Shown here one piece after another: positions 16,053 to 30,769 of a stretch of DNA of 37,630 nt (position 1 is its first letter; each line of letters starts with the position of its first letter). The translations under genes were made by a program, and so were the position numbers. The notes beneath the pieces were generated by a model. That model worked only from the letters and a program-made list of their open reading frames with translations. It did not search any database and was not told the DNA's origin. This DNA comes from a virus. The DNA lies in the IMG/VR virus record IMGVR_UViG_3300043449_002015, positions 1-37,630 of that record; one strand, written 5' to 3'.

Positions 16053-16397
16053 TTAGAAACCTATATCGTCTTCACTGCTTTGAGTGGTTGAAGCGCTGTC
16101 CCCGTTAAACTTAACCACTTTGTTTGCTGCTACGTAGGAGAATGTGCGATCTTGACCAGCCTTGTCCTTGTATTTCCTGGTCTCAAACTTACCCTCTACG
16201 ATAAGCACGTCGTTTTCATAAACCCCGTTCATTGCTTCAGCAGATTTACCGAATCCCTGGATATGTATCCACTGACCGTTTTTATCTGTAGGGTCCTTAG
16301 CCTCAAGGATGCACTTACCAAATAAGGTTCCCTTGTCAGTAGTTTTAACCTCTGGATGTTTCTTCACTGATCCCATTACAAACACTTTGTTTATCAC
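16053..16397 (-). CDS. ssb: Single-stranded DNA-binding protein (SSB-like OB fold)
   Basis: 114 residues from a GTG start at 16397. This start is preferred over an ATG 51 bases upstream because AAGAGG lies 6 bases before it and because the protein then begins MINKVFVMGSVKKHPEV, the usual first beta strand of phage/bacterial SSBs. Core OB-fold strands are visible (FGKCILEA, QWIHIQGFGKSAEAM, YENDVLIVEGKFETR, YKDKAGQDRTFSYVAANKV). The C-terminus ends DDIGF, an acidic-plus-Phe tip as in SSB tails that recruit partners. The gene overlaps the 3' end of recT by 53 bp in another frame. Confidence 0.8.
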   Translation of the reverse strand: MINKVFVMGSVKKHPEVKTTDKGTLFGKCILEAKDPTDKNGQWIHIQGFGKSAEAMNGVYENDVLIVEGKFETRKYKDKAGQDRTFSYVAANKVVKFNGDSASTTQSSEDDIGF

Positions 16398-17247
16398 TTT
16401 TAACCTCTTCTTTAACTTCTGCAACAATAGTATCAACATTTTCACCATTAGTCAACACTGGCAGCGTCGAGGTTGGAGCAAATGGCAGGTTAAGAGAAAA
16501 ATCTAGGTCATCCTCAAGTTTCACAGTTTCAACCACATTATCAAGATCTTTGGAGTTTTTACCCTTCATAGCAATGGAGACCTTGTCACATAGATAAGAC
16601 AAGTTCATTTCTGATAACTTCTTTGCAAGAGCAGCCTTGTGCTTGATGTTGTTGGGGTCATAGCCACCAGCGTTTTTTTGTTCTATGGCTATAGGCTCAA
16701 CAGCAGAAGATGAGACTTTAATCGATTCCATTCTATCCTCAATATTAACGGGTTGCATTGGGTCAATTTCGTCTGGTGTGTAACCAATCATAATTATGTC
16801 TGGTGCTACCGATCTTGCTGCCTCAGAAGTGCAACGGGAACGACACATAGCCCTTGGGTATTTTCTCCAGCTGTCGTTACTTGATAAGCCAGCCCTCTTG
16901 GCATCTTCCATATCAAACTTAATGATCTGCTTTTCCCTACCGGGTCTGCGAACCTCCATTGTGCAACCTTCATCGGTAAGACGTAGAAAGTTGATCTCGA
17001 TGCCTGCTTTATACATCATGGCAAGCATGAGACTAGCCGACATTGTTGGGGTACCCTGAATGATCTTGATCTCAGCAAGGGAAAGCATTGGAGGGAGGCC
17101 CATTTCGTGACCCTTAAGCATAACAGCTAAGGCCTGCTCAGCAGTCTTAATGCTCTTGGGTGCAAATCCTGACGCAACGATAACGTTTGCCTGTTCTTTT
17201 AGGACTGTCCATACAGTGGGATTCAAAAGAGCTGGTAGAGTAGACAT
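16345..17247 (-). CDS. recT: RecT-family single-strand annealing protein
   Basis: 300 residues. It shows the family's conserved order: A-x-x-x-M-L-K-G-H-E-M-G-L-P-P-M near residues 41-56, EIKIIQGTPTMSASLM (62-77), FDMEDAKRAGL, W-R-K-Y-P-R-A-M-C-R-S-R (130s) and GYTPDEIDP. RecT proteins pair complementary strands in phage recombination and replication-end repair. GAGAGG precedes ATG, and the ATG overlaps the stop of the upstream Gp157-like gene. No exonuclease (RecE or YqaJ type) is seen next to it; the ERCC4-type nuclease at 30287 is the nearest nuclease candidate. Confidence 0.88.
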   Translation of the reverse strand: MSTLPALLNPTVWTVLKEQANVIVASGFAPKSIKTAEQALAVMLKGHEMGLPPMLSLAEIKIIQGTPTMSASLMLAMMYKAGIEINFLRLTDEGCTMEVRRPGREKQIIKFDMEDAKRAGLSSNDSWRKYPRAMCRSRCTSEAARSVAPDIIMIGYTPDEIDPMQPVNIEDRMESIKVSSSAVEPIAIEQKNAGGYDPNNIKHKAALAKKLSEMNLSYLCDKVSIAMKGKNSKDLDNVVETVKLEDDLDFSLNLPFAPTSTLPVLTNGENVDTIVAEVKEEVKSDKQSVCNGISEETSRG

Positions 17248-18472: not shown

Positions 18473-18480
18473 GATTGAAT

Positions 18481-19242
18481 ATGATGATTAGTTATCACGT
18501 TGGCCAACGCCATGAGGAACATTGGAGATTTACGAAGGGTTGGCAGGTTACCAACGTAGAAAATGCTCGGGACGTAGCCAGGGTTATCCTGAGATACAGC
18601 AATAGCGCCATAACCTGGAAACACGGGGAGCGCGCAACTAAGAATTTTCAGGGTGCAGGGTGGGCCGTCCTGGATGTAGACAGTGGTGCAACTATACAGG
18701 ATGCCGCTGCGCTATATGGGGAATATGAGCATGTTATAGGTACGACGCGTAGCCATATGAAACAAAAGGGGAACGACAAACCTCGGGATAGATTCAGGGT
18801 ATGGGTTAGGCTCGACCAGGTATGCACTGACCCTAATGACTACAGGGAGACCGTTCGACAGCTGGGAATAAAACTATCGGCTGACCCTCAAGCATGTGAC
18901 GCGGCCAGGAAATTCCTTCCATGCACGAAGATCGTAAGCGGTAGGGTTGACGGATTAACCGCCCCTATATCTAAGTTCTCTAAGCCTGTCGTCGTAACCC
19001 CACAGGGCGTTGCCAACATGAGACAGAATTTCATACCTGCGTTTATCAGGGAGTGGCTAACCGTAGGAGCCCCCGAGGGTTCTAGGAATGGGTGTGTGTT
19101 CAAAACTGGGTACTACCTTGGTAGAAACGGGTTCAATCTAGACGAAATCTTATCAACCGCACTACATAGCAACCTAGCCAATGGGATCAGCCAGGGTGAG
19201 CTAACGTACACGCTACGCAGGGGGTACCATGCTAGTAAATGA
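18481..19242 (+). CDS. Archaeo-eukaryotic-type (AEP) DNA primase, stand-alone
   Basis: 253 residues; ATG 18481 is chosen over TTG 18475 because AGGA is suitably placed. AEP motif I appears as WAVLDVDSG (D65, D67 binding metal), motif II as TTRSHM...RDRFRVWVRL (about 88-110; basic and His residues), and motif III region as the ARKFLPCTKIVSG segment near 141-154. This is the pattern of RepB/PrimPol-like primases of phages and plasmids. There is no helicase domain; the SF3 helicase is encoded separately at 26346. Together they would initiate and prime phage DNA synthesis. Confidence 0.75.
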   Translation: MMISYHVGQRHEEHWRFTKGWQVTNVENARDVARVILRYSNSAITWKHGERATKNFQGAGWAVLDVDSGATIQDAAALYGEYEHVIGTTRSHMKQKGNDKPRDRFRVWVRLDQVCTDPNDYRETVRQLGIKLSADPQACDAARKFLPCTKIVSGRVDGLTAPISKFSKPVVVTPQGVANMRQNFIPAFIREWLTVGAPEGSRNGCVFKTGYYLGRNGFNLDEILSTALHSNLANGISQGELTYTLRRGYHASK

Positions 19243-19432
19243 AATCTCACAAAAGGCACAGCGTCTAGGGATAAACATAAAACACCTGCTAGCGATGGCA
19301 AACATTGACAGTAGCACATTCTATAAGTGGCACAGGGGAGAGCTAGCAACGCTTCAGGGACACGTGGGGAAACTTTTACAGTGTAAGAAGTACCTAGACA
19401 TGGTAGAGGAAGCTCAAAGGGTTTTTAGGTAG
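19229..19432 (+). CDS. Small helix-turn-helix protein
   Basis: 67 residues, overlapping the primase 3' end by 14 bp, with AGGGGG four bases before ATG. It reads as an HTH: EISQKAQRLGINIKHLLAMANIDSSTFYKWHRGE, where residues about 14-37 form the two-helix DNA reader. The rest is a helical dimerisation-type tail. It could act as a second Cro-like or excise-like regulator. The following 318 bp hold no + strand gene. Confidence 0.6.
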   Translation: MLVNEISQKAQRLGINIKHLLAMANIDSSTFYKWHRGELATLQGHVGKLLQCKKYLDMVEEAQRVFR

Positions 19433-19533
19433 CTAATCTTCTTGTTTACAATCCAAAACATAAGGTCTATCAGAAACCTTGAAGTTACTGAGGATTTCAT
19501 ACTACACAATTTTGGGCAGCATAAAGCGTGTGA

Positions 19534-19659
19534 TTACAGGTAGTTAGACTGCTCAAAATTGAGCAGTGAGAATTCGTCTTGCAGACCAAGGTCTCTAGGG
19601 ACACCCCACATTTCAAATACCTCAGAAGTGAGAGAATTAAAAACACCGTACATTCTCAT
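19534..19659 (-). CDS. 41-residue protein of unknown function
   Basis: A short - strand frame beginning MRMYGVFNSLTSEVFEMWGV and ending with an acidic/aromatic tail. AGGA lies 6-7 bases before its ATG. It is divergent from the T5orf172 gene and antisense to the transcription expected from the HTH gene. The perfect short palindrome CTGCTCAAAATTGAGCAG lies within it. Small size makes this a modest-confidence call. Confidence 0.45.
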   Translation of the reverse strand: MRMYGVFNSLTSEVFEMWGVPRDLGLQDEFSLLNFEQSNYL

Positions 19660-19696
19660 AGTGTTTCCTATTGAATAAATTCCAACAAGATAAATA

Positions 19697-19725
19697 TTGC
19701 TACCTCATGATGAGATATGTATAAT
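19697..19725 (+). promoter_or_regulatory. Sigma70-type promoter for T5orf172 gene
   Basis: TTGCTA at 19697-19702, 17-bp spacer, perfect TATAAT at 19720-19725, ending 26 bases before the ATG at 19752. The near-consensus boxes and spacing suggest independent strong expression of the nuclease gene. Confidence 0.7.
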
Positions 19726-19751
19726 TGAGATATCTTTTATGGAGTTGGTAA

Positions 19752-20507
19752 ATGATTAAAGATCAATTGCGTCAAAAAAATCTAGAAGGACGTTATTTAT
19801 GGAACAAATTTTTAAAAGAATCAGAGGATAAAAAACAGAATGAATTCACAAGTTTAACGGTATTTTTGAAGGAAAATTTAGATTCACCAAGAATAAGTAA
19901 CATACTTAGAAAACCGTGGGTTCAAGAATATAAAGATTTTTTAACAAAACAAGATGGATTTTCACCAATAAGAACAAAACAAGGGGTTGAAACGGAGGTA
20001 ACTTTTGATTTTCTAGCGGCAATACTTGGTGATTTGAACAAGTTTTTTGAGTGTTTTTATTCAATGTGGCTAATGAGCAATTACCACCCAGGCTGTGATA
20101 AAGAATGTATTGATTTTCTAGAAAATGAAAAAAAATCAGATTTTACAGCAGCTATGCTTGGGCATTTTTCTGTAAATGCTAAGGAATATTCAGAACTTGA
20201 AAAGAAAAGAAGAAAAGAAAAAAAAGAAAAAATATACGTAATTAAGTTAAGAAATGAACTTTACAAAATAGGAATAACAAAAAATATAAGTAAAAGGTTT
20301 AAGTCAATAAAGACAACAAACCCGGAGGCAGAATTAATCACTGTCTATGACGGATGCCGAAACCAAGAAAACAAAATACACAAAAGTACATGCAAAAAAA
20401 GAATAGGTAAATCTGAGGTTTATAAATTCAAATCGGATAAAGAAGCAATTCTTTTTGTAGAGAAGTATGTAGAACCTAAGATGATCAGCTTCAAGTCAGA
20501 GATCTAG
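19752..20507 (+). CDS. T5orf172/MUG113-type GIY-YIG-like nuclease domain protein
   Basis: 251 residues, with GGAG before ATG. The C-terminal third (about 160-245) has the divergent GIY-YIG core: IYVIKL...LYKIGITKNISKRFKSIK, then EAELITVYDG, E..IHK and F...EA..FVEKYV. The N-terminal 150 residues are helical and unknown. The gene is clearly AT-richer and Lys-richer than its neighbours, has its own promoter and is bounded by a hairpin at 20517-20542, all signs of a recently acquired cargo gene. It may be a homing-type or defence/counter-defence nuclease. Confidence 0.75.
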   Translation: MIKDQLRQKNLEGRYLWNKFLKESEDKKQNEFTSLTVFLKENLDSPRISNILRKPWVQEYKDFLTKQDGFSPIRTKQGVETEVTFDFLAAILGDLNKFFECFYSMWLMSNYHPGCDKECIDFLENEKKSDFTAAMLGHFSVNAKEYSELEKKRRKEKKEKIYVIKLRNELYKIGITKNISKRFKSIKTTNPEAELITVYDGCRNQENKIHKSTCKKRIGKSEVYKFKSDKEAILFVEKYVEPKMISFKSEI

Positions 20508-22305: not shown

Positions 22306-22566
22306 ATGATTTGCTGTAAATGTTGTAAAGGACTAGAAATAGAACCTAACCCCAGGTTTATACACCTTGATTCTATATATAGCAAGGCACTCAATGGCAC
22401 CCTAGAGGTATCCGACGAGCTATTACATGGTGTCGTGACCCTGGATTGCTTCAAAGAAGTTGGCGCCAGCCTTCAGGAGATGAGCAGGGTATTTTCAAAA
22501 TACTTGGTTTACCTGCAACCAATGGAAATGAAAGCAGCATTTAGATTTCACTTATACATATCATGA
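22306..22566 (+). CDS. Unknown small protein with Cys-rich N-terminus
   Basis: 86 residues; start follows GAGGTAACC. The N-terminus MICCKCCKG has two Cys pairs two residues apart and a further Cys comes at about 46, so a small metal-binding site is possible. The remainder is helical. Family not recognised. Confidence 0.5.
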   Translation: MICCKCCKGLEIEPNPRFIHLDSIYSKALNGTLEVSDELLHGVVTLDCFKEVGASLQEMSRVFSKYLVYLQPMEMKAAFRFHLYIS

Positions 22567-22575
22567 GGGTAAAAA

Positions 22576-22758
22576 ATGACACAAGAAAGCAAGGGCGCTG
22601 CCAGAGTTTACATCGTAAAACACAGTAGGACCCACGAGATTTTTGGGTGCTTCACCAATATGCAGGCTGCGTTGCAATGTCAGAATGCTTGGCCCGACCG
22701 TGACAACCTAATAATTAGTGTCAGGGAATTACAAAATGAATACACAGAGGGGGCGTAG
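22576..22758 (+). CDS. Small array paralogue 1 (Y-I-V...A-A-L type)
   Basis: 60 residues. Core reads RVYIVKHSRTHEIFGCF, then a helix (NMQAALQCQNAWPDRD) and a final strand (NLIISVRELQNE). This beta-beta-helix-beta plan recurs in the genes at 22761, 22994, 24115, 24568 and 24824, so they look like diverged copies of one small family. A GGCGCTGCCA motif overlaps codons 7-10. The stop and next start form the GCGTAGCAATG junction. Function unknown; anti-host roles are common for such arrays. Confidence 0.55.
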   Translation: MTQESKGAARVYIVKHSRTHEIFGCFTNMQAALQCQNAWPDRDNLIISVRELQNEYTEGA

Positions 22759-22760
22759 CA

Positions 22761-22985
22761 ATGAAGATTTACATACTAATGTCAGAAGGTTGCCAATGTT
22801 GTTCATCAACATTCGGTTATTACCTAACCGAACAACAAGCTATTAAGGACAAGAATCAAATGATTAAGGATGGGTACCAGAATGCCAGTATAGAAACAGC
22901 GTACCCATGCGATTTGGACGACTGGTTAAAAATCCAAGAACCTACTTTGGTACACCACACGCCATACAAGAAGATATCACCATAG
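22761..22985 (+). CDS. Small array paralogue 2
   Basis: 74 residues starting two bases after the previous stop at GCGTAGCAATG with no Shine-Dalgarno, so translation is probably by reinitiation. MKIYILMSEG, a Cys cluster (CQCCSSTFGYY), a helix (TEQQAIKDKNQMIKDGY) and a last strand (NASIETAYPC) follow the array plan. Confidence 0.55.
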   Translation: MKIYILMSEGCQCCSSTFGYYLTEQQAIKDKNQMIKDGYQNASIETAYPCDLDDWLKIQEPTLVHHTPYKKISP

Positions 22986-22993
22986 GATAAATA

Positions 22994-23179
22994 ATGAAAT
23001 ACAAATATTACGTGTTACTAAAGGGAAATAATGAATATATTGCTACATTTTTTAATGTAAAACAACTTTATGAAGTAAAACAATACTTTGACGCTGGTGT
23101 ATACATACGGGAATTCGTAGTAAACGAGGAGGATATTATTGACATAGTATGCTCCTGCCGAGAAAAAAACTACGAATGA
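22994..23179 (+). CDS. Small array paralogue 3
   Basis: 61 residues, AGGATAA upstream. KYYVLLKGNNEYIATFF, a helix (VKQLYEVKQYFDAG) and a strand (VYIREFVVNEED) match the array plan; the end has two Cys (IVCSCREKN). An 87-bp gap with a promoter follows, so this closes the first transcription block. Confidence 0.55.
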   Translation: MKYKYYVLLKGNNEYIATFFNVKQLYEVKQYFDAGVYIREFVVNEEDIIDIVCSCREKNYE

Positions 23180-23207
23180 TCTATTCTTAGCAACTCAAGT
23201 AACATTC

Positions 23208-23236
23208 TTGACCTACCTAGAATAGTCTAGTATAAT
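23208..23236 (+). promoter_or_regulatory. Strong sigma70-type promoter inside small-gene array
   Basis: TTGACC (23208-23213), 17-bp spacer, perfect TATAAT (23231-23236). Transcription would start near 23243, giving a leader of only about 24 bases before ATG 23267 and without a clear Shine-Dalgarno. Confidence 0.75.
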
Positions 23237-23266
23237 TCTTACCACACAACATAAAGATGCATAGCA

Positions 23267-23500
23267 ATGGAAGAAGTATTTTGTTTAAGTTGGAAAACAG
23301 GCGGACTGTATCCATTAACGACAATAAAATTATTCGAGACAGAGAAAATGCTCAACCAATACATCGAAAAATTGGTTGAAAGTTTAAAGAAAGATTACCT
23401 AGATGAAGGAATCGAATGCACAATTGAAGAAATTAAACAGGGTTTTGCAGAATTTATGGACATGAAAGTTGAAAAGATAAAAATACACCGTGAGGCATAG
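23267..23500 (+). CDS. Small acidic early protein (possible array member)
   Basis: 77 residues, starting at GCATAGCAATGG. MEEVFCLSWKTGGLYPLTTIKLFETEK then two helices (LNQYIEKLVESLKKDYL; TIEEIKQGFAEFMD) and a strand (VEKIKIHREA). The strand-helix-strand order resembles the array family with an enlarged helix. It is the first gene after the 23208 promoter. Function unknown. Confidence 0.55.
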   Translation: MEEVFCLSWKTGGLYPLTTIKLFETEKMLNQYIEKLVESLKKDYLDEGIECTIEEIKQGFAEFMDMKVEKIKIHREA

Positions 23501-23502
23501 CA

Positions 23503-23754
23503 ATGGCTCGTAAACGTTCAGAAACCAAGGTTACAGGTTGGGTGAAGTTACAGGACTACGTAGTAGATAAGCTTAAGTCAGAACACACTAGACAGAAGGA
23601 AATAGTTCTAGATCTTAAGCACCAGTATGAACATGCTCTTAAACATCTTTATTGTGACACATATCACATAGTTATGGATCGTAACGAAAGAACTTCAGAC
23701 AAGTGTGCGACAGCAAAGGCTAAGGCAGCAGTAACAACGTTTCTTAAGGGGTGA
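23503..23754 (+). CDS. Unknown basic helical protein
   Basis: 83 residues; start two bases after the previous stop at GCATAGCAATGG, again without a Shine-Dalgarno. Basic N-terminus (MARKRSETKVTGWVKLQDYVV) and a long helix with His residues (KEIVLDLKHQYEHALKHLYCDTYHIV). Not an array-type fold. No known motif. Confidence 0.5.
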   Translation: MARKRSETKVTGWVKLQDYVVDKLKSEHTRQKEIVLDLKHQYEHALKHLYCDTYHIVMDRNERTSDKCATAKAKAAVTTFLKG

Positions 23755-23756
23755 CC

Positions 23757-23930
23757 GTGAGCATCATTGTGTGCGTAGCTTTGGCATGCTTATCTATGGT
23801 TGTTGTGTGGGTACTAGCTGAATTCGTAATGTGGTGTGCAAGAAACGATCAAGGGTGGATACTTGTTGTTTTAGGAATAATTTTATTTACGATTGTTTTT
23901 TACATTGGATGCTTGGCGTTGCCAAAGTAA
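23757..23930 (+). CDS. 57-residue two-helix membrane protein
   Basis: GTG start with AAGGGG five bases upstream (an in-frame GTG at 23751 is less well placed). Two membrane helices: residues 3-26 (IIVCVALACLSMVVVWVLAEFV) and 34-55 (WILVVLGIILFTIVFYIGCL), joined by a short polar loop (ARNDQG). Its size and topology suit a class II holin or a superinfection/anti-host membrane protein; the early-region location favours the latter. The motif GGCGTTGCCA forms its last codons. Confidence 0.6.
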   Translation: MSIIVCVALACLSMVVVWVLAEFVMWCARNDQGWILVVLGIILFTIVFYIGCLALPK

Positions 23931-23953
23931 CTAAGTTATTGGAAGGTTGATAT

Positions 23954-24118
23954 ATGGATATTTTCTACGTAAAACCTGAATGGGGAAGAATTTTAGACAA
24001 ATGCAAATGGCAGAAATTAGATGACAGGGTGATAGATGTAACAGCGGAAGAGGTAAAAGAAGAATACGAACAGTTAAAAATTACAGAAGTAACTACGTTA
24101 GTGGAAGGGTTAATATGA
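23954..24118 (+). CDS. 54-residue acidic protein
   Basis: GGAAGG lies 8-10 bases before ATG. MDIFYVKPEWGRILDKCKWQ then an acidic helix (AEEVKEEYEQLK) and a last strand. It resembles a short array protein. The stop overlaps the next ATG (ATGA), coupling it to the frameshift gene. Confidence 0.5.
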   Translation: MDIFYVKPEWGRILDKCKWQKLDDRVIDVTAEEVKEEYEQLKITEVTTLVEGLI

Positions 24119-24275
24119 AGGTTTATATACTTAATTATTATGATTACGGAATTGAACACAATTTATATTTAAAACATTTGGTAAAGTTTTGGAAAAAATA
24201 GAAGAACTATTTGAAGAGGAAAAAGGAACAGTATCAGCAACATACAAGATTGAAATATCATCATTGGAAGATTAA
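24115..24275 (+). CDS. Small array paralogue read through a -1 frameshift (or frameshifted pseudogene)
   Basis: The zero frame gives 28 residues, MKVYILNYYDYGIEHNLYLK then HLVKFWKK and TAG at 24199. The -1 frame continues from the same point as TFGKVLEKIEELFEEEK...YKIEISSLED to TAA at 24273-24275. The joined 53-residue product fits the array plan (strand, strand, helix, strand); neither frame alone does. The switch coincides exactly with T-TTA-AAA (24168-24174), a slippery heptamer of X-XXY-YYZ form. So a programmed -1 shift is plausible; a lost A in the AAAA run, by mutation or sequencing error, is the alternative. Confidence 0.5.
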
Positions 24276-24296
24276 TAGCGTAGCAATGGGCGTTGC

Positions 24297-24313
24297 CAAC
24301 GTTAGTAAAGGAT
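24297..24313 (+). repeat. 17-bp direct repeat, copy 1 (ribosome-site cassette)
   Basis: CAACGTTAGTAAAGGAT, identical to 24547-24563. Each copy ends in the AAAGGA ribosome site of the following gene (24322 and 24568). Copy 1 follows a GCGTAGCAATG junction and a GGCGTTGCCA motif, with a 9-codon mini-frame (MGVANVSKG) running through it. Confidence 0.8.
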
Positions 24314-24321
24314 AGATAAGC

Positions 24322-24555
24322 ATGGGTGATCTATTAAGTTCTGTCGCTATTTTGTTGTTACTACCATTTATTCTACTTATATTTTTGGGTAACTGGATAT
24401 ACACAAGATTCTTCGAGGAAAAAATAGAAGGAATACCAAAGAGAGAATTTGAAGAAATAAAGAGAGATAAAGAAAGAATTGAAAAATATGAGAACAGAAA
24501 ACATATGTATTTGTATACAGGGTTACACAGAAATGATTGTCATGGACAACGTTAG
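24322..24555 (+). CDS. Single-pass membrane protein, charged C-terminal tail
   Basis: 77 residues, AAAGGA upstream. Residues 5-24 (LSSVAILLLLPFILLIFLGN) form one membrane helix, followed by Trp/Tyr/Arg at the interface and a highly charged helix (EEIKRDKERIEKYENRK). It probably sits in the inner membrane with the tail in the cytoplasm. Role unknown; could modify the host envelope or exclude other phages. Confidence 0.55.
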   Translation: MGDLLSSVAILLLLPFILLIFLGNWIYTRFFEEKIEGIPKREFEEIKRDKERIEKYENRKHMYLYTGLHRNDCHGQR

Positions 24556-24563
24556 TAAAGGAT
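24547..24563 (+). repeat. 17-bp direct repeat, copy 2
   Basis: CAACGTTAGTAAAGGAT, identical to 24297-24313; here it spans the last codons of the membrane protein gene and supplies the ribosome site for the gene at 24568. Suggests the gene in between was duplicated or inserted by recombination at the repeat. Confidence 0.8.
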
Positions 24564-24567
24564 GGGT

Positions 24568-24804
24568 ATGTCACCAAAAATTTACATAGTGGTAGACACC
24601 CTTATGGAAGCAGGGGTTCTAATAGATGAGAATGACAGAAGTATTTTTGACCCGGTTGTGATACAAGGTGTTTTTTTAGAAAGAGAAAAGGCCGAAGATT
24701 ATATAGAACATAGAGAAAGCTCAGAAATTAGGGAATATGAGGTAAAAGGATTCACAGAATGGATACTAAAGAACGTAGATAAATTAGTAATTCCTAACAC
24801 TTAG
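24568..24804 (+). CDS. Small array paralogue 5
   Basis: 78 residues from ATG 24568; the in-frame ATG at 24562 overlaps the AAAGGA ribosome site, so the second is preferred. KIYIVVDTLMEAG, a longer loop (IDENDRSIFDP), a strand (VVIQGVF), the helix LEREKAEDYIEHRES and a strand (REYEVKGF) follow the array plan with an insertion. Acidic overall. Confidence 0.55.
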   Translation: MSPKIYIVVDTLMEAGVLIDENDRSIFDPVVIQGVFLEREKAEDYIEHRESSEIREYEVKGFTEWILKNVDKLVIPNT

Positions 24805-24823
24805 TAGCAAGGGGCATTAAAAA

Positions 24824-25051
24824 TTGGAATTCTATATATACATTGTGACAGAGTTAGACGGAAGATTTGGTTCTTTTTATTCAAAAAAATCTGCTTTTGA
24901 ATACTACAGAAAATTAAAAGACAAAGGTTATAAGGACGTTATGATAAGGACGGTATCTGTAAATCAAGATATGGCTGATTCGTGGGAACCAAAAAACTGT
25001 TGCAGATGCGGAGCTGAGGGAACTAATAGCCTAATTAATACCACTGCGTAG
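24824..25051 (+). CDS. Small array paralogue 6, with CxC-type tail
   Basis: 75 residues from a TTG start, with AAGGGG nine bases upstream and no better codon. FYIYIVTELDGRFGSFY, helix (KKSAFEYYRKLKDKGY), strand (KDVMIRTVSV) match paralogues 1-3 closely in spacing. A C-terminal CCRCGAEG segment may bind metal. The stop falls in GCGTAGCAA. Confidence 0.55.
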   Translation: MEFYIYIVTELDGRFGSFYSKKSAFEYYRKLKDKGYKDVMIRTVSVNQDMADSWEPKNCCRCGAEGTNSLINTTA

Positions 25052-25064
25052 CAAAGGATTATAG

Positions 25065-25409
25065 ATGAGTTTAAAGGGTTGGCCATTTATTCCTGATGAC
25101 ATTGTAGAACGGGAAATTGAACTGGATCGAGATATTGAAGAACAGGACATTGCAGATGCGGCGAATAGGATTCAGAAATGGGGACCATTCAAAGAAATGT
25201 ATGTGATCACAAGTGCAAGAACAATACACAGAATTCAGGAAAAATTAGGACCAAGACCAGATAATCATGAATTATTAATAGTAACACAACACGGAAACGT
25301 AAGGATTGATCACCACAGAATGGTCCGAGAAGACTATGCATACTTGATAGGAATGGGAGATAACAAGAATCAGATTATCCACATTCACTTCTTGCCTACC
25401 ACTGCATAG
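25065..25409 (+). CDS. Unknown early protein
   Basis: 114 residues, AAAGGATTATAG before ATG. Acidic N-terminus (DDIVEREIELDRDIEEQDIADAA), then a mixed alpha/beta region (EMYVITSARTIHRIQEKLG, HELLIVTQHGNVRIDHHR) and a His-rich end (QIIHIHFLPTTA). Three His clusters are notable but no known metal-enzyme signature is complete. The stop falls in GCATAGCAC. Confidence 0.5.
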   Translation: MSLKGWPFIPDDIVEREIELDRDIEEQDIADAANRIQKWGPFKEMYVITSARTIHRIQEKLGPRPDNHELLIVTQHGNVRIDHHRMVREDYAYLIGMGDNKNQIIHIHFLPTTA

Positions 25410-25429
25410 CACCGTACATTCTCACAGGG

Positions 25430-25459
25430 TTGACTTCAAAAGTTTCGCATTGCTATAAT
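25430..25459 (+). promoter_or_regulatory. Strong sigma70-type promoter upstream of replication block
   Basis: TTGACT (25430-25435), 18-bp spacer, extended -10 TGCTATAAT with perfect TATAAT at 25454-25459. Transcription would start near 25466, at the first base of the hairpin that opens the leader. It would drive the genes at 25523, 25742 and the SF3 helicase at 26346. Confidence 0.75.
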
Positions 25460-25465
25460 GAAAAA

Positions 25466-25493
25466 ACCCCCGGCGTATCCACCCACCGAGGGT
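25466..25493. other. Leader hairpin 1
   Basis: ACCCCCGG (25466-25473) and CCGAGGGT (25486-25493) pair around a 12-base loop. As + strand RNA there is one C-A mismatch; read on the - strand the stem is fully paired (one U-G) and is followed by six Us, like a terminator for leftward transcription. On the + strand it would form the 5' end of the mRNA from the 25430 promoter. Confidence 0.5.
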
Positions 25494-25501
25494 CACATGA
25501 C

Positions 25502-25527
25502 CATGCAATAGAGGAGTATCGCATGAA
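25502..25527 (+). repeat. Duplicated leader/start cassette, copy 1
   Basis: CATGCAATAGAGGAGTATCG followed by CATGAA, nearly repeated at 25720-25746 as CATGCAATAGAAAGGATATCG then CATGAA; the match goes on into the first codons (TATTATCTCA in both). Each copy follows a hairpin. It carries the ribosome site and start codon, so the two genes share translation signals. Confidence 0.75.
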
Positions 25528-25672
25528 CGACGCTATTATCTCACCAGAGACAGAAAAAATCAATCTAGTAGTAACAATGGACACCACGTGGGAAGAGATT
25601 GAAGAACACGTAGGTGAAGAGAATATGGAATTGGTTAGTACAGCCATTGAATTATTCAGTGGCTTGTTCTAA
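25523..25672 (+). CDS. 49-residue acidic protein
   Basis: Starts at ATG 25523 with GAGGAG nine bases upstream; a longer in-frame reading from 25430 would begin inside the promoter. MNDAIISPETEKINLVVTM, then an acidic helix (TWEEIEEHVGEENMELVSTA). Its first codons and leader are closely matched by the next gene (see the repeated leader), so both begin as copies of one cassette. Function unknown. Confidence 0.55.
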   Translation: MNDAIISPETEKINLVVTMDTTWEEIEEHVGEENMELVSTAIELFSGLF

Positions 25673-25681
25673 AATAGAAAA

Positions 25682-25709
25682 ACCCGATGGTGGGGGTCAC
25701 CAATCGGGT
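25682..25709. other. Leader hairpin 2
   Basis: ACCCGATGGTG (25682-25692) pairs with CACCAATCGGGT (25698-25709) with one bulged base. A-rich runs flank both sides (GAAAAACCC before, CAAAAAAC after), so on the - strand it is followed by five Us. It sits between the 49-codon gene and the next. Confidence 0.55.
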
Positions 25710-25719
25710 CAAAAAACAT

Positions 25720-25746
25720 CATGCAATAGAAAGGATATCGCATGAA
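25720..25746 (+). repeat. Duplicated leader/start cassette, copy 2
   Basis: Second copy of the cassette described at 25502, placed between hairpin 2 and the 179-codon gene. It differs by a few bases in the ribosome-site segment. Confidence 0.75.
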
Positions 25747-26281
25747 TCGACTTATTATCTCAATTACCCCAGAAGATGTCAACATCCACATGGACCGCAA
25801 TCTCATACCAATCATGGGGAAACCCAGAGATTGGTCTGCTAATCTTTTAAAAAAGAAAGATTGGTGGGAGAGAACAAGAATTCAGCATGGAGTAAATTTC
25901 TTGGAATCAAACTTTAGGACTATTTATAGTTTTGAAGGAGATAGCATTTTTTCAGATAGATCATTAACTTACGAGATATATTTACCAGGAAGTCCACACG
26001 CATATTTTGAACCTAACGCATACAGTAGACTTTGGCAGCATTATCTTGCTGGAAATATGGCAAAGGAAAAAGAACTACAAGAAAGAGTTACCGAGACCCT
26101 GAAGGAATGGAGATTCAGAAACGATATCAATAAGCCAAAAAAGCCTTTTATAACTTCAACATCTAAGTTTTTTAAATTACCAAAAGAAGAAAGAGAGGAA
26201 ATAGAGAGAAGGATAAAAAACCACAAGGATGTAGCAGAAAAAATATACAAAGTATTCGGTGGAAGTCGTTGGAATCATTAA
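25742..26281 (+). CDS. Unknown protein upstream of SF3 helicase
   Basis: 179 residues, AAAGGA before ATG. The N-terminus copies that of the previous gene (MNRLIISIT vs MNDAIISP). Middle region contains KDWWERTRIQHGVNFLESNF and YEIYLPGSPHAYFEPNAYSRLWQHY; the last 60 residues are basic and helical (FKLPKEEREEIERRIKNHKDVAEKIYKVFGG). No catalytic motif is recognised. AT-rich, like the helicase gene with which it is probably co-transcribed; it may be a replication accessory protein. Confidence 0.5.
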   Translation: MNRLIISITPEDVNIHMDRNLIPIMGKPRDWSANLLKKKDWWERTRIQHGVNFLESNFRTIYSFEGDSIFSDRSLTYEIYLPGSPHAYFEPNAYSRLWQHYLAGNMAKEKELQERVTETLKEWRFRNDINKPKKPFITSTSKFFKLPKEEREEIERRIKNHKDVAEKIYKVFGGSRWNH

Positions 26282-26289
26282 AATAAAAA

Positions 26290-26315
26290 CCCCGGTGAGG
26301 TGGTTCTCATCGGGG
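26290..26315. other. Leader hairpin 3
   Basis: CCCCGGTGAG (26290-26299), a 6-base loop, CTCATCGGGG (26306-26315); ten pairs with one G-U on the + strand. It is preceded by AAATAAAAA and sits between the 179-codon gene and the helicase start at 26346. Third member of the hairpin-before-gene series. Confidence 0.55.
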
Positions 26316-26345: not shown

Positions 26346-27743
26346 ATGGCTAGAAATCTCTCAGTTGTCAATGGTTCAGATAGTTTTGACCCGTCAGATA
26401 AATCAGTAGCAGATATTGAAATAGACCTAGGAGACTGGCTCTGCAAGAAACAAGTTATAGGAATGCCAGAACTGGATGGGTCTTTAAAAGTTCTTAGAAA
26501 TAAAGCTGGTTATAGAATATTTCACGTAGATGACCATAATGTTTGCGAAGAGATAGAGATATCTCAGGTAAGAAAGCTTCTTGAAAACTCCGTAAGAAAT
26601 AGTGCATATAGAAGGAAAATAAGCTTCAAAACTATATCTCTGGTAGTTAATAGATGGTTAGACTGCAACGCTGAACAAATGGAATACGAGCCAGTTCCCC
26701 AAACTCTTCACGATTCAACAAGATATGCATTTTCAAGATTAGAAGAGGAAATTAAACCAATAGATCTTCAACAGCTGGAAGAACACTGCCCACAATACCA
26801 CGCAATGATGGTGCACATGGAAAATAACGAATGCTGGGCAGCCATGAGATGGGATGCATATGTAGGATCTTACGGAAGAAAACAAGCCATATATTTGCAT
26901 GGTGAAAGCGGAGTGGGAAAGACCACACTGTGTGACGCATTTGGTGAAATGTTAGGAGGAGAAAAGGCATACGTTAGCGTAAGTACAAAATATCTAGATG
27001 GTCCATTTGCTATGGAATTATTAGTAGGTAAAGCTTTAGCAGCAATAACAGAGGTAAGCGAGTCTTATCTAAAGACCAAAGACTTTCTAATACTTACTGG
27101 TGAACAAAACGCAGCTATTAACCCAAAGGGCAGACCGGGTTACATGGCTAAAATTGGAGCGCAAATAATACTAACTAGTAACGACGAATTAGAAATACCT
27201 GATTTGCCAGAAATAAAGAACCGTATTATCACATGCTATTTAAAGAAATATGACCGGGAAGATCTACCGGACGAAGTAATTAAAGGAATATTTAAAGATA
27301 AAAAGAAATATATTTTGGGTTATTCAAGATGGTGTTGGGAAAAATTCCAAAGAGAAAACAAAGGGAAGATCGTAGCCGACAAGACATCGTTGGATGTAGC
27401 AGTTAAAAAACATGAAGAGAGATACCAGGATGTTTTCGATGTTTACTTTAAGTACTCTCCAGAAGGGACAGAGTGCGTAAGATGTGCAGATGCGCACGCC
27501 GCAATAAAGAAGACGATTAAATCTCGTAGAGAATTGGGAGCATTTAAAAAATGGTTAGAGAAGGAATACAAAATATTAGCTCGTAAACCAGAGATAAACG
27601 GAAAAGATGTGAGGGCATACAGAAACATGGCTTGGTCTAACGAATCAATTTATGTGGATGGAAAAAGAATGGAGACACTAAAAATAGCAAAAACGGCATC
27701 AGAAGAAATTCAAGATTGGAATGTGATACTCTCAGACAAATAA
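26346..27743 (+). CDS. SF3 (D5/P4-like) replicative helicase
   Basis: 465 residues from ATG 26346 with AAAAGG about 10 bases upstream; a longer in-frame reading from 26259 would span the hairpin and overlap the previous gene. Walker A HGESGVGKTT (G186-T193), Walker B-like ALAAITEV (E236), and SF3 motif C/sensor AQIILTSND (272-280, Asn 279) are clear. A winged-helix-like C-terminal region follows. SF3 helicases form hexamers at viral and plasmid origins and usually work with a primase; here the AEP primase at 18481 is the likely partner. No primase domain is present in this chain. The stop codon lies at the edge of the candidate origin. Confidence 0.85.
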   Translation: MARNLSVVNGSDSFDPSDKSVADIEIDLGDWLCKKQVIGMPELDGSLKVLRNKAGYRIFHVDDHNVCEEIEISQVRKLLENSVRNSAYRRKISFKTISLVVNRWLDCNAEQMEYEPVPQTLHDSTRYAFSRLEEEIKPIDLQQLEEHCPQYHAMMVHMENNECWAAMRWDAYVGSYGRKQAIYLHGESGVGKTTLCDAFGEMLGGEKAYVSVSTKYLDGPFAMELLVGKALAAITEVSESYLKTKDFLILTGEQNAAINPKGRPGYMAKIGAQIILTSNDELEIPDLPEIKNRIITCYLKKYDREDLPDEVIKGIFKDKKKYILGYSRWCWEKFQRENKGKIVADKTSLDVAVKKHEERYQDVFDVYFKYSPEGTECVRCADAHAAIKKTIKSRRELGAFKKWLEKEYKILARKPEINGKDVRAYRNMAWSNESIYVDGKRMETLKIAKTASEEIQDWNVILSDK

Positions 27744-28028
27744 AACTTGTCCCCCCTCCATAACCTGTCTCCGACCAAATCCTTGCAGCACTAAACAAGC
27801 GACACAAAGACAACTCCGACAGGTTTTTTCAACTTTTCTCTCCATATGTATATGCACCTAAAATAGTATTCCTTATATATAATATAAAAATACTTGTCTT
27901 TTATGTCTTCTTGTCGCTTCTCTTGGTAGAGTAAGTTTTCATAGCAGACAACTTTGAAAATGAACTTGTCGGACTTGTCTCCAGGTGACAACCTACCCAT
28001 GTTGCCCTGACTTTTACTCTCAGCTGTC
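27735..28028. other. Candidate replication origin with ACTTGTC-type iterons and AT-rich core
   Basis: At least eleven copies of a 7-bp box related to ACTTGTC: + strand at 27745, 27763 (ACCTGTC), 27892, 27909 (TCTTGTC), 27964, 27973, 28022 (AGCTGTC); - strand at 27809, 27818, 27947 and 27987. Between the clusters, 27840-27890 is nearly all A/T (a possible unwinding element). Arms AAGCGACA / TGTCGCTT (27797-27804 and 27912-27919) and AAAGACAA / TTGTCTTT (27806-27813, 27895-27902) flank this core as inverted repeats. No gene is present. Position next to the SF3 helicase gene fits an origin. The protein that binds is not known. Confidence 0.6.
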
Positions 28029-28030
28029 GT

Positions 28031-28071
28031 CCCCCTCCCGCGCCTCTGGCGCTCCTGTGGGGGTTATTTAA
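28031..28071 (+). terminator. GC-rich hairpin terminator-like structure
   Basis: CCCCC (28031-28035), inner stem GCGCC-TCT-GGCGC (28040-28052), and GGGGG (28059-28063) nest into one hairpin, followed by TTATTTAA. This would end rightward transcription from the helicase operon after it has crossed the origin, protecting the oppositely oriented KilA-N gene. Confidence 0.5.
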
Positions 28072-28288
28072 CCAGTAGAACCACAGTCCTCGGCGTAGCC
28101 GGTGTGCACTATTGGGGGAGGGGCGAGGCGGTGTGCCCTGCGTGAGGGTCTAGCGTGCCCAGGGTGGATGCGTAGAGCCAGGGGGTAGGTAAGCCAGGGA
28201 CCTATGGTTATGAGACCCTGGCGGTGCCATTTTGATATCTTGGGAGGGATTGCTGCAGGGTTTGAGTGGTGGGGGTGGTTAAAGGGGG
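28072..28288. other. GC-rich non-coding stretch with inverted repeat
   Basis: About 217 bp without a convincing frame on either strand and markedly richer in G on the + strand than the rest of the window (GGGGGAGGGGCGAGGCGG, GGTGGGGGTGG). It contains GCCAGGG (28193-28199) / CCCTGGC (28216-28222), a 7-bp inverted repeat, and its CCCTGGC arm continues into GGTGCCA. It would be the 3' end of the KilA-N transcript or part of the origin region. Confidence 0.5.
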
Positions 28289-28987
28289 TTACAGCTTAGT
28301 TATGACTTCTTTCAGGTGGTCCCAGTCTCTGACTAGACCCATTTTCAGGAAGTCTACTAGTTTAGATTCAAGTTTTGTTCTTCTCTCAAGCTGGTCATAG
28401 TTGGCGGTATTCCATGTATCCCCATCTGGTTTGATCTTTGCTTTTAACATCTTTGCAGAGTTTACATACAACCAATGGTTATCTTTACCCTGTCTGTCTG
28501 TCAGATAAGCGTCAATAGCTATATTAAGGTTTTTAAATTCATCTCCTGAGTCGTCTCGCCATTGTAGGATCTTGTGGTTAACAAATGTGTCGTAAACCAT
28601 GAACTTGAAGTTAGCATCTAGTCTACTCGCAGCGTCCAGAAGAACATATAGGTGTGCCCAAGTACCGCCTCCTTTTCCTCTCTTTGTTGTAACGCATGTT
28701 AACTTTGGACCAACTAGTTCATATCTGTTTTGCCCTTCTCTCTCAACGATTTCAAAATCCGTCGGTTTTACGTATTCTGAATTCACTTTAGTTTCAACTA
28801 CTTGCAAGAATTCTAGAGTCTCAGACTGCCTAAGATAGTTACTTAGGTCAAGTGCTCCCAATCCCTTACTTAGTCTTATGCTATTTCCATAGTTCCAAAG
28901 CTCTGTAAGACTTCCCATCATTGTCTTGTGTTCGATTGGCAACCTGAAGTCACCGATAGCCACCTGCATTAATTGATTTGTCTTCAT
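28289..28987 (-). CDS. KilA-N domain DNA-binding protein
   Basis: 232 residues with AAGGAG six bases before ATG. Residues about 45-150 match the KilA-N fold: LGALDLSNYLRQSETLEFL, then the hallmark GKGGGTWAHLYVLLDAASRLDANFKFMVYDTFVNH. The C-terminal 80 residues are helical and basic (a second domain, ending DWDHLKEVITKL), with a candidate HTH-like part (NYDQLERRTKLESKL). KilA-N proteins in phages act as antirepressors or early regulators. It is the only - strand gene in the right half and has its own promoter, with an ACTTGTC box at its start. Confidence 0.8.
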   Translation of the reverse strand: MKTNQLMQVAIGDFRLPIEHKTMMGSLTELWNYGNSIRLSKGLGALDLSNYLRQSETLEFLQVVETKVNSEYVKPTDFEIVEREGQNRYELVGPKLTCVTTKRGKGGGTWAHLYVLLDAASRLDANFKFMVYDTFVNHKILQWRDDSGDEFKNLNIAIDAYLTDRQGKDNHWLYVNSAKMLKAKIKPDGDTWNTANYDQLERRTKLESKLVDFLKMGLVRDWDHLKEVITKL

Positions 28988-29007: not shown

Positions 29008-29044
29008 GACAAGTTAATCTAGAAAATATTCAGGAGATTTTCAA
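29008..29044 (-). promoter_or_regulatory. KilA-N promoter with ACTTGTC box at start site
   Basis: On the - strand: TTGAAA (29044-29039), 17-bp spacer, TAGATT (29021-29016). The box ACTTGTC (29014-29008) begins one base past the -10 and covers the expected start site. The same box is repeated in the candidate origin, so the origin-binding protein could also control this promoter. Confidence 0.55.
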
Positions 29045-30107: not shown

Positions 30108-30290
30108 ATGAACAGCATCCAGGAGCTAACCGCACTGGTTCCGAGTAACGCGCATCTGTGTGCGTGGCATCCTCCCGAGTGGTTCTATTACGCGTTTATA
30201 GCGGGGTTATTTGTGTTCCCTTACCTAACAATGGTAGCTTTTTCTAAGTTAATTCTAAACATCCTAGACAGGTTAGGGGGTGAGGAATGA
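30108..30290 (+). CDS. 60-residue single-pass membrane protein
   Basis: AGGTGGG lies 5-6 bases before ATG. Residues about 27-50 (YYAFIAGLFVFPYLTMVAFSKLIL) form one membrane helix; the N-terminus is polar and the C-terminus acidic (RLGGEE). The stop overlaps the ATG of the nuclease gene. Could be a holin or accessory to the upstream membrane protein; no family recognised. Confidence 0.55.
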   Translation: MNSIQELTALVPSNAHLCAWHPPEWFYYAFIAGLFVFPYLTMVAFSKLILNILDRLGGEE

Positions 30291-30769
30291 TTCCATCTCT
30301 GCCGTCGAAATTCTGCGCTGACTATGTAACAGTGATCATAGATACCAGGGAACAGAAACCAGTGGATGTATCACCGCTAAAGTCAGTACGTGGCACGTTG
30401 GTAACTGCGGACTACTCCATCAAGGGATTAGAAGATCACGTGGCGATAGAACGCAAGAGCAAGCAGGACTTAATCCAATCGGTCGGTAGGGAACGTGATA
30501 GATTCGACCGTGTCGTACACAGGTTGCAAGCATATGAGACCAAAGCTATCGTTGTCGAGGCGACGTGGGAAGATCTCAAGGCTGGACTGTGGCGAGGGTC
30601 TGTCACTAGCTCTCAGGTGTGCGGTTCTGTGCTGGGGTGGATGGCGGCAGGTGTCCCGGTTCTTCTCGCGGGTAATGCTGAGCGTGCGGGGGATGCTATA
30701 GCCAGGATGTTGTATATAGCAGCCAGGCGTAGGTATGGTATTATCAGGTCTATGATTCAGGGGGTTTAA
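30287..30769 (+). CDS. ERCC4-type nuclease (putative junction resolvase)
   Basis: 160 residues, GAGGA overlapping the preceding stop. ERCC4 nuclease motifs in order: IIDTREQ (D19, R21, E22), TADYSI (D42, in place of the common G-D-Y), AIERKSKQDL (E55, R56, K57, D61) and GRERDRFDRVVHRL. This is the XPF/Mus81-type active site, without a helicase or HhH domain. In phages such small proteins probably cut branched recombination or replication intermediates. It may be functional partner to RecT and SSB, although they lie on the opposite arm. Confidence 0.8.
   Translation: MIPSLPSKFCADYVTVIIDTREQKPVDVSPLKSVRGTLVTADYSIKGLEDHVAIERKSKQDLIQSVGRERDRFDRVVHRLQAYETKAIVVEATWEDLKAGLWRGSVTSSQVCGSVLGWMAAGVPVLLAGNAERAGDAIARMLYIAARRRYGIIRSMIQGV

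Follow-up and report, generated by a model that had tools for sequence, protein, structure and literature searches.

Does the gap between the convergent helicase and KilA-N genes of this phage contain its replication origin, and if so, which protein might act on it? The window, that is, the whole 37,630-nt stretch of DNA that was analysed, carries a 127-bp direct terminal repeat and was therefore treated as circular, with a genome length of 37,503 bp. An SF3 helicase gene (DUF5906/P4-family primase C-terminal helicase) occupies positions 26,346-27,743 on the plus strand and encodes 465 aa from the ATG at 26,346, the longest mechanical open reading frame beginning at a GTG at 26,259. The KilA-N protein gene lies convergent to it on the minus strand (28,289-28,987; Pfam KilA-N, slightly under cut-off), and the putative origin (27,735-28,028) is placed between the two 3' ends. 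Consistent with the sequence-only reading, which had seen no gene here, the only frame found in this stretch was one of 69 aa on the minus strand without support, and no Rfam matches were obtained.

Box cluster and mirrored palindrome

Starting at the helicase stop codon, the stretch holds 14 copies of TGTC distributed over both strands, against 1.9 expected from the remainder of the genome. Longer forms of the box were similarly concentrated, with 12 copies of YTGTC (1.2 expected), seven of CYTGTC (0.35 expected) and nine of the heptamer ASYTGTC, where shuffling the stretch gave 0.2. The observed counts were matched by none of 2000 shuffles of 27,735-28,028, and no 294-bp segment of 200 dinucleotide-shuffled genomes reached the counts of 14 (TGTC), 12 (YTGTC) and 9 (ASYTGTC). 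In an unbiased k-mer scan, GACA/GACAA (27,734) also ranked among the strongest clusters when words that are homopolymer-like, CCCC or purely A/T were disregarded. The box density that had been suggested as a check was thus far above that of the genome remainder. The cluster had been described as at least eleven ACTTGTC-type boxes in both directions; a dense cluster on two strands was indeed present, but exact ACTTGTC occurs only four times in the stretch (seven times in the whole window, where 5.3 are expected, with no window-wide enrichment), and the eleven boxes are therefore better understood as a degenerate TTGTC/CTGTC core.

The order of the array had been recognised only in part. Six of the boxes form a mirrored set with three boxes per arm, in which the intervals are 9 and then 8 bp from the core outwards on both sides. 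In the left arm (27,797-27,829, minus strand) TGTC is read on the minus strand at 27,818-27,821, 27,809-27,812 and 27,801-27,804, and in the right arm (27,887-27,919, plus strand) it is found at 27,895-27,898, 27,904-27,907 and 27,912-27,915. The inverted arms noted earlier, AAGCGACA...TGTCGCTT and AAAGACAA...TTGTCTTT, are real and proved to be parts of a single 33-nt inverted repeat with 24/33 matches and a 57-nt loop, which was matched by no shuffle. This palindrome starts 54 bp past the helicase stop codon, and the single strand folds box against box at -16.3 kcal/mol (z -5.0). Eight more boxes flank the mirrored set. Those on the left (27,735-27,769) are located at 27,735 (minus), 27,748 (plus) and 27,766 (plus), where GACAAATAAAACTTGTC makes a 17-bp inverted repeat, and those on the right (27,947-28,028) at 27,947 (minus), 27,967 (plus), 27,976 (plus), 27,987 (minus) and 28,025 (plus).

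Between the inner boxes lies an A/T-rich core (27,822-27,894), which may serve as the melting site. Its description as nearly pure A/T was overstated: the core is A/T-rich, at 77% over 73 bp, with 82% in its best 50 bp, and six other places match it in A/T content. Inverted repeats of comparable quality with a loop of at most 80 nt were found at one other position in the window (19,493, 17-nt loop). That repeat lies in about 300 bp of gene-free DNA preceding a GIY-YIG-type (MUG113/T5orf172) endonuclease gene, and the region at 19,432-20,507 is a possible homing element.

As clusters of short boxes may also be bound by transcriptional regulators, we considered whether the array is an operator for the KilA-N protein or for the XRE regulator (17,884). 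One ACTTGTC box (29,008-29,014, minus strand) does lie 21 bp before the codon at which KilA-N starts, and a weak promoter-like match was seen on the minus strand inside the stretch. However, the neighbouring genes converge and no start codon of either faces the gap, which weakens any promoter or operator reading; moreover, no cluster of ASYTGTC was found at the XRE promoter or elsewhere, and the layout fits origins. A regulatory role was therefore judged improbable as an explanation of the array. The single box before KilA-N could nevertheless link an origin-binding protein to the KilA-N promoter.

Non-coding DNA continues to the right of the array (28,030-28,290). Its left end is rich in C runs, with 13 CCCC/GGGG words counted over 300 bp, and G runs follow. 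RNA folding of the G-rich stretch at 28,020-28,290 was no better than that of shuffles, and it gave no Rfam match.

Candidate initiator, gene setting and strand skew

The protein most likely to act on the boxes would be the SF3 helicase encoded just upstream, for which box binding is predicted. It matched Pfam PF19263 (DUF5906) above the cut-off (E 4e-12) and NCBIfam TIGR01613, the P4 family, with an E-value of 2e-9, which is under the curated cut-off. A BLASTP comparison aligned it with the Pri-Rep protein of the Escherichia coli satellite EcCICFT073 across the ATPase domain (E 1e-7, 23% identity). An AlphaFold model of the helicase alone had a mean pLDDT of 33, too low for use. No primase domain was found in the 465-aa protein; a primase-like gene is located 8 kb away on the plus strand (18,475-19,242; phrog_2135 DNA primase, E 1e-14), in which AEP-like DxD and SxH motifs were recognised by eye and for which Pfam and NCBIfam gave no profile matches. 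This gene probably encodes the priming partner of the helicase. A single-strand DNA-binding protein gene belonging to the replication/recombination set is present on the minus strand (16,053-16,448; Pfam SSB, E 2e-12), and the other genes identified encode a terminase, a portal-like protein, a RecT-like annealing protein and the XRE regulator.

Several further features of the window were recorded. Two similar G+C-rich stem-loops at 25,683-25,706 and 26,289-26,314, CCCGATGGTG...CACCAATCGGG and CCCCGGTGAG...CTCATCGGGG, stand in A-rich surroundings directly before the genes starting at 25,742 and 26,346, and may act as terminators or as RNA control elements. The interval 22,306-25,672 is taken up by a run of roughly twelve very small genes, several of them alike (KIYILMSEG..., EFYIYIVTE..., KYYVLLKGN...); those scanned mostly had no database matches. 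An ERCC4-type nuclease gene (30,287-30,769) possibly encodes a branched-DNA nuclease of the phage.

Relatives of this phage were sparse in the collections searched. The nearest annotated phage was CP017838 from Silvanigrella, with 25-34% protein identity. Searches with the helicase, KilA-N and terminase proteins returned no relative covering the origin, yielding only a 4.8-kb terminase fragment (71% identity, L003) and distant genomes; no DNA similarity was found in phages, and no relatives of the helicase in plasmids.

A turning point in GC skew near the gap had been proposed as a test of the origin. GC skew proved uninformative, being positive nearly throughout and without a turn at the gap, but A/T skew does turn here when taken at fourfold-degenerate sites, where protein content has no influence on it and a strand correction was applied. 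Its best two breakpoints were placed at 28,388 and 8,657, almost opposite each other on the circle, and were equalled by none of 300 gene-order permutations; the 90% bootstrap range was 27.7-31.2 kb for the first, while the second was loose (2.8-20.4 kb). Plus-strand genes had an A/T skew of +0.20 at 17.9-27.7 kb and of -0.14 at 29.1-37.6 kb. The convergent KilA-N gene carried the sign that a gene on the far side should have, and the two strands agreed in sign. The switch supports, rather than proves, the departure of two forks from the gap, as mosaic gene modules could imitate such a signal.

Short boxes repeated every 8-9 bp in either orientation are also found in partition sites, and the array might accordingly be a centromere whose repeats recruit a ParB- or ribbon-helix-helix-type protein during segregation of an extrachromosomal prophage. 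Among the proteins scanned, which included only part of the small open reading frames, no ParA- or ParB-like gene was seen, and the array lies behind a helicase gene and coincides with the skew switch. A partition function was for these reasons considered very improbable.

Distribution of the mirrored spacing

The spacing of the six boxes was used as a search pattern in its own right, GACA-N4-GACA-N5-GACA-N(58-88)-TGTC-N5-TGTC-N4-TGTC, with 24 fixed bases and 31 permitted gap lengths. It occurs once in the window. By our own arithmetic, and assuming equal base frequencies, about 0.03 chance matches would be expected in the genome collection of 257 billion bases; the pattern matched 14 loci, on four viral and ten bacterial contigs. 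A control pattern with the two intervals swapped gave no matches in the viral collection, compared with four for the pattern itself. At most loci the identical boxes were longer than the pattern requires (ACGTGTC, AGTGTC, CGCGTGTC, TGTCGA, CTGTCT). In L011 and L022 the array is located directly behind DUF5906 primase-helicase genes, and in L013 and L016 it lies 62-81 bp behind DUF3987 genes, L021 being nearly a copy that sits where its contig ends. The first four have boxes that are 36/36 identical, unlike those of the window, which are degenerate and variable outside TGTC. As these loci were found without using any protein, their place behind primase-helicase genes provides independent support for an origin. 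Of the remaining matches, L009 and L012 adjoin phage structural genes, and the gene upstream of L010 is cut by the contig end. L019 was discarded as a TGTCAGTC tandem repeat.

Five loci (L014, L015, L017, L018 and L020) lie in intergenic Bacteroidetes DNA away from replication genes, and the spacing rule is therefore not unique to origins. These loci (L014:1454-1574, L015:4877-4986, L017:2108-2237, L018:6884-7009 and L020:5146-5268) are palindromes of the same three-box 9/8 grammar and resemble short mobile repeats; sequences like L014 are scattered at about six places in one Prevotellaceae genome (G005). Such dispersal of 9/8 elements raises the alternative of a MITE-like insertion in the window, in which a short palindromic repeat carrying three boxes at each end came to lie behind the helicase gene by chance. 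The phage, however, has a single copy with imperfect arms, the eight further boxes outside the arms would not be expected from a MITE, and the four other loci carry the array directly behind primase-helicase genes. An insertion of this kind thus appears most unlikely.

The rule was infrequent among the annotated phages sampled. No comparable array was found behind the DUF5906 gene of the distant relative CP017838, and most DUF5906 phages sampled from GenBank were without one behind that gene. When six-box arrays were sought behind 13 further primase/helicase genes of annotated phages, including BPP-1, and behind that of CP017838, the scores were weak at most; a match in Xanthomonas phage DoCa5 (29/36 with 9/8 spacing) was judged not convincing. 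In the literature searched, no description was found of mirrored 9/8 spacing shared across otherwise unrelated boxes and helicase families. It is conceivable, though we hold it only tentatively and think it rather doubtful, that the mirrored six-box rule (9/8 bp with a 58-88 bp core) reflects a shared docking geometry of ring helicases, kept across unrelated boxes and helicases (DUF5906 and DUF3987). If that were true, origins could be found from spacing alone.

Likeness to known origins and proposed function

The closest likeness was to the rep-ori replicon of EcCICFT073, which has been tested experimentally on a plasmid (PMC6092414). The 289-bp gap behind its Pri-Rep gene, whose product has D5_N, DUF5906 and Pox_D5 domains, contains GGTAGA boxes in both orientations, 11 in all, with a distance of 9 bp from one to the next. 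By these measured values it agrees with the window in the number of boxes, the length, the step, the position and the helicase family, although the box core differs (TGTC in the window, GGTAGA in EcCICFT073). More generally, two sets of iterons around an A/T-rich region are a constant feature of PICI origins (PMC6092414), and in SaPI Rep helicases the C-terminal domain binds iterons directly downstream of the protein's own gene (PMC7581432). As in the PICI/SaPI Rep-ori systems (EcCICFT073, SaPI1 and SaPIbov1; PMC6092414, PMC7581432), two sets of short iterons on both strands surround an A/T-rich region in the window, immediately past the 3' end of the gene for the putative initiator helicase, over about 290 bp and with boxes 9 bp apart. 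Initiators of this type are P4/D5-type AAA+ helicases, a class to which the DUF5906 helicase of the window belongs. The window differs in that the putative origin lies in a full-size phage genome, the helicase and primase are separate genes, and a single palindrome with mirrored 9/8 spacing is built from the inner boxes. Identity as a PICI satellite was ruled out: such satellites are small, have no capsid/terminase set of their own and are induced by a helper phage, whereas the circular 37.5-kb record has its own terminase and portal-like gene and is therefore a phage.

Other systems share parts of this design. The P4 alpha protein, which combines iteron recognition, melting and priming (PMC4234260), pairs a P4-family SF3 helicase with an iteron origin, and the window's helicase may belong to that family, its TIGR01613 match being under the cut-off. 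P4 alpha fuses a Toprim primase to its helicase, whereas the probable primase of the window is AEP-like and encoded 8 kb away; as the two are unfused, the window is not strictly a P4 alpha replicon. The pRN1/BPP-1 type also has a large interrupted palindrome 3' of the replication gene. In pRN1 the stem-loop begins 54 bp behind the primase-helicase gene and has a 58-nt loop (75 °C; PMC4234260), against 54 bp and 57 nt in the window, an agreement that may be due to chance. The pRN1 origin is without iterons, whereas the stem in the window is built of them and further boxes lie outside it; BPP-1 showed no box array in the same six-box test. SCCmec Cch2 (PMC7581432) resembles the window in that the helicase acts on iterons just downstream of its gene, but these are only three 5-nt direct repeats (AAGTG) and the helicase is of another family.

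The suggestion that the boxes are primase start sites, or a packaging signal, rather than helicase loading sites was regarded as barely tenable: the NrS-1 primase-polymerase recognises short words (PMC8718748) and the array is followed by G-rich non-coding DNA (28.03-28.29 kb), but primase words need no mirroring, even spacing or palindrome, and the terminase genes are 4-5 kb from the array.

The proposal that the layout behind the SF3 helicase is that of a plasmid or phage origin was upheld by the box density, the A/T skew, the tested EcCICFT073 design and the independent loci. We conclude with considerable confidence that 27,735-28,028 is the replication origin of the phage, with the SF3 helicase as its candidate initiator, a core predicted to melt and, probably, two forks. 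Judged from its sequence, it very probably represents a known kind, the P4/PICI-style bipartite origin adjacent to a helicase gene, of which this phage would be a further member. The helicase would bind the TGTC boxes as two oligomers, one per mirrored set, probably through its C-terminal domain, and would then melt the A/T-rich core so that two rings could load in opposite directions. The AEP-like primase and the SSB, together with host polymerases, might then complete initiation and send out two forks, for which a meeting point near 8-9 kb on the circular genome would be predicted.

A concrete origin and a candidate initiator are thereby proposed for a phage whose lineage had no close relatives in any collection searched, and a link is drawn between free-living phages and the P4/PICI replication module. 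From the spacing rule, moreover, points of contact between initiator and DNA can be predicted, and the rule may be used to look for further origins.
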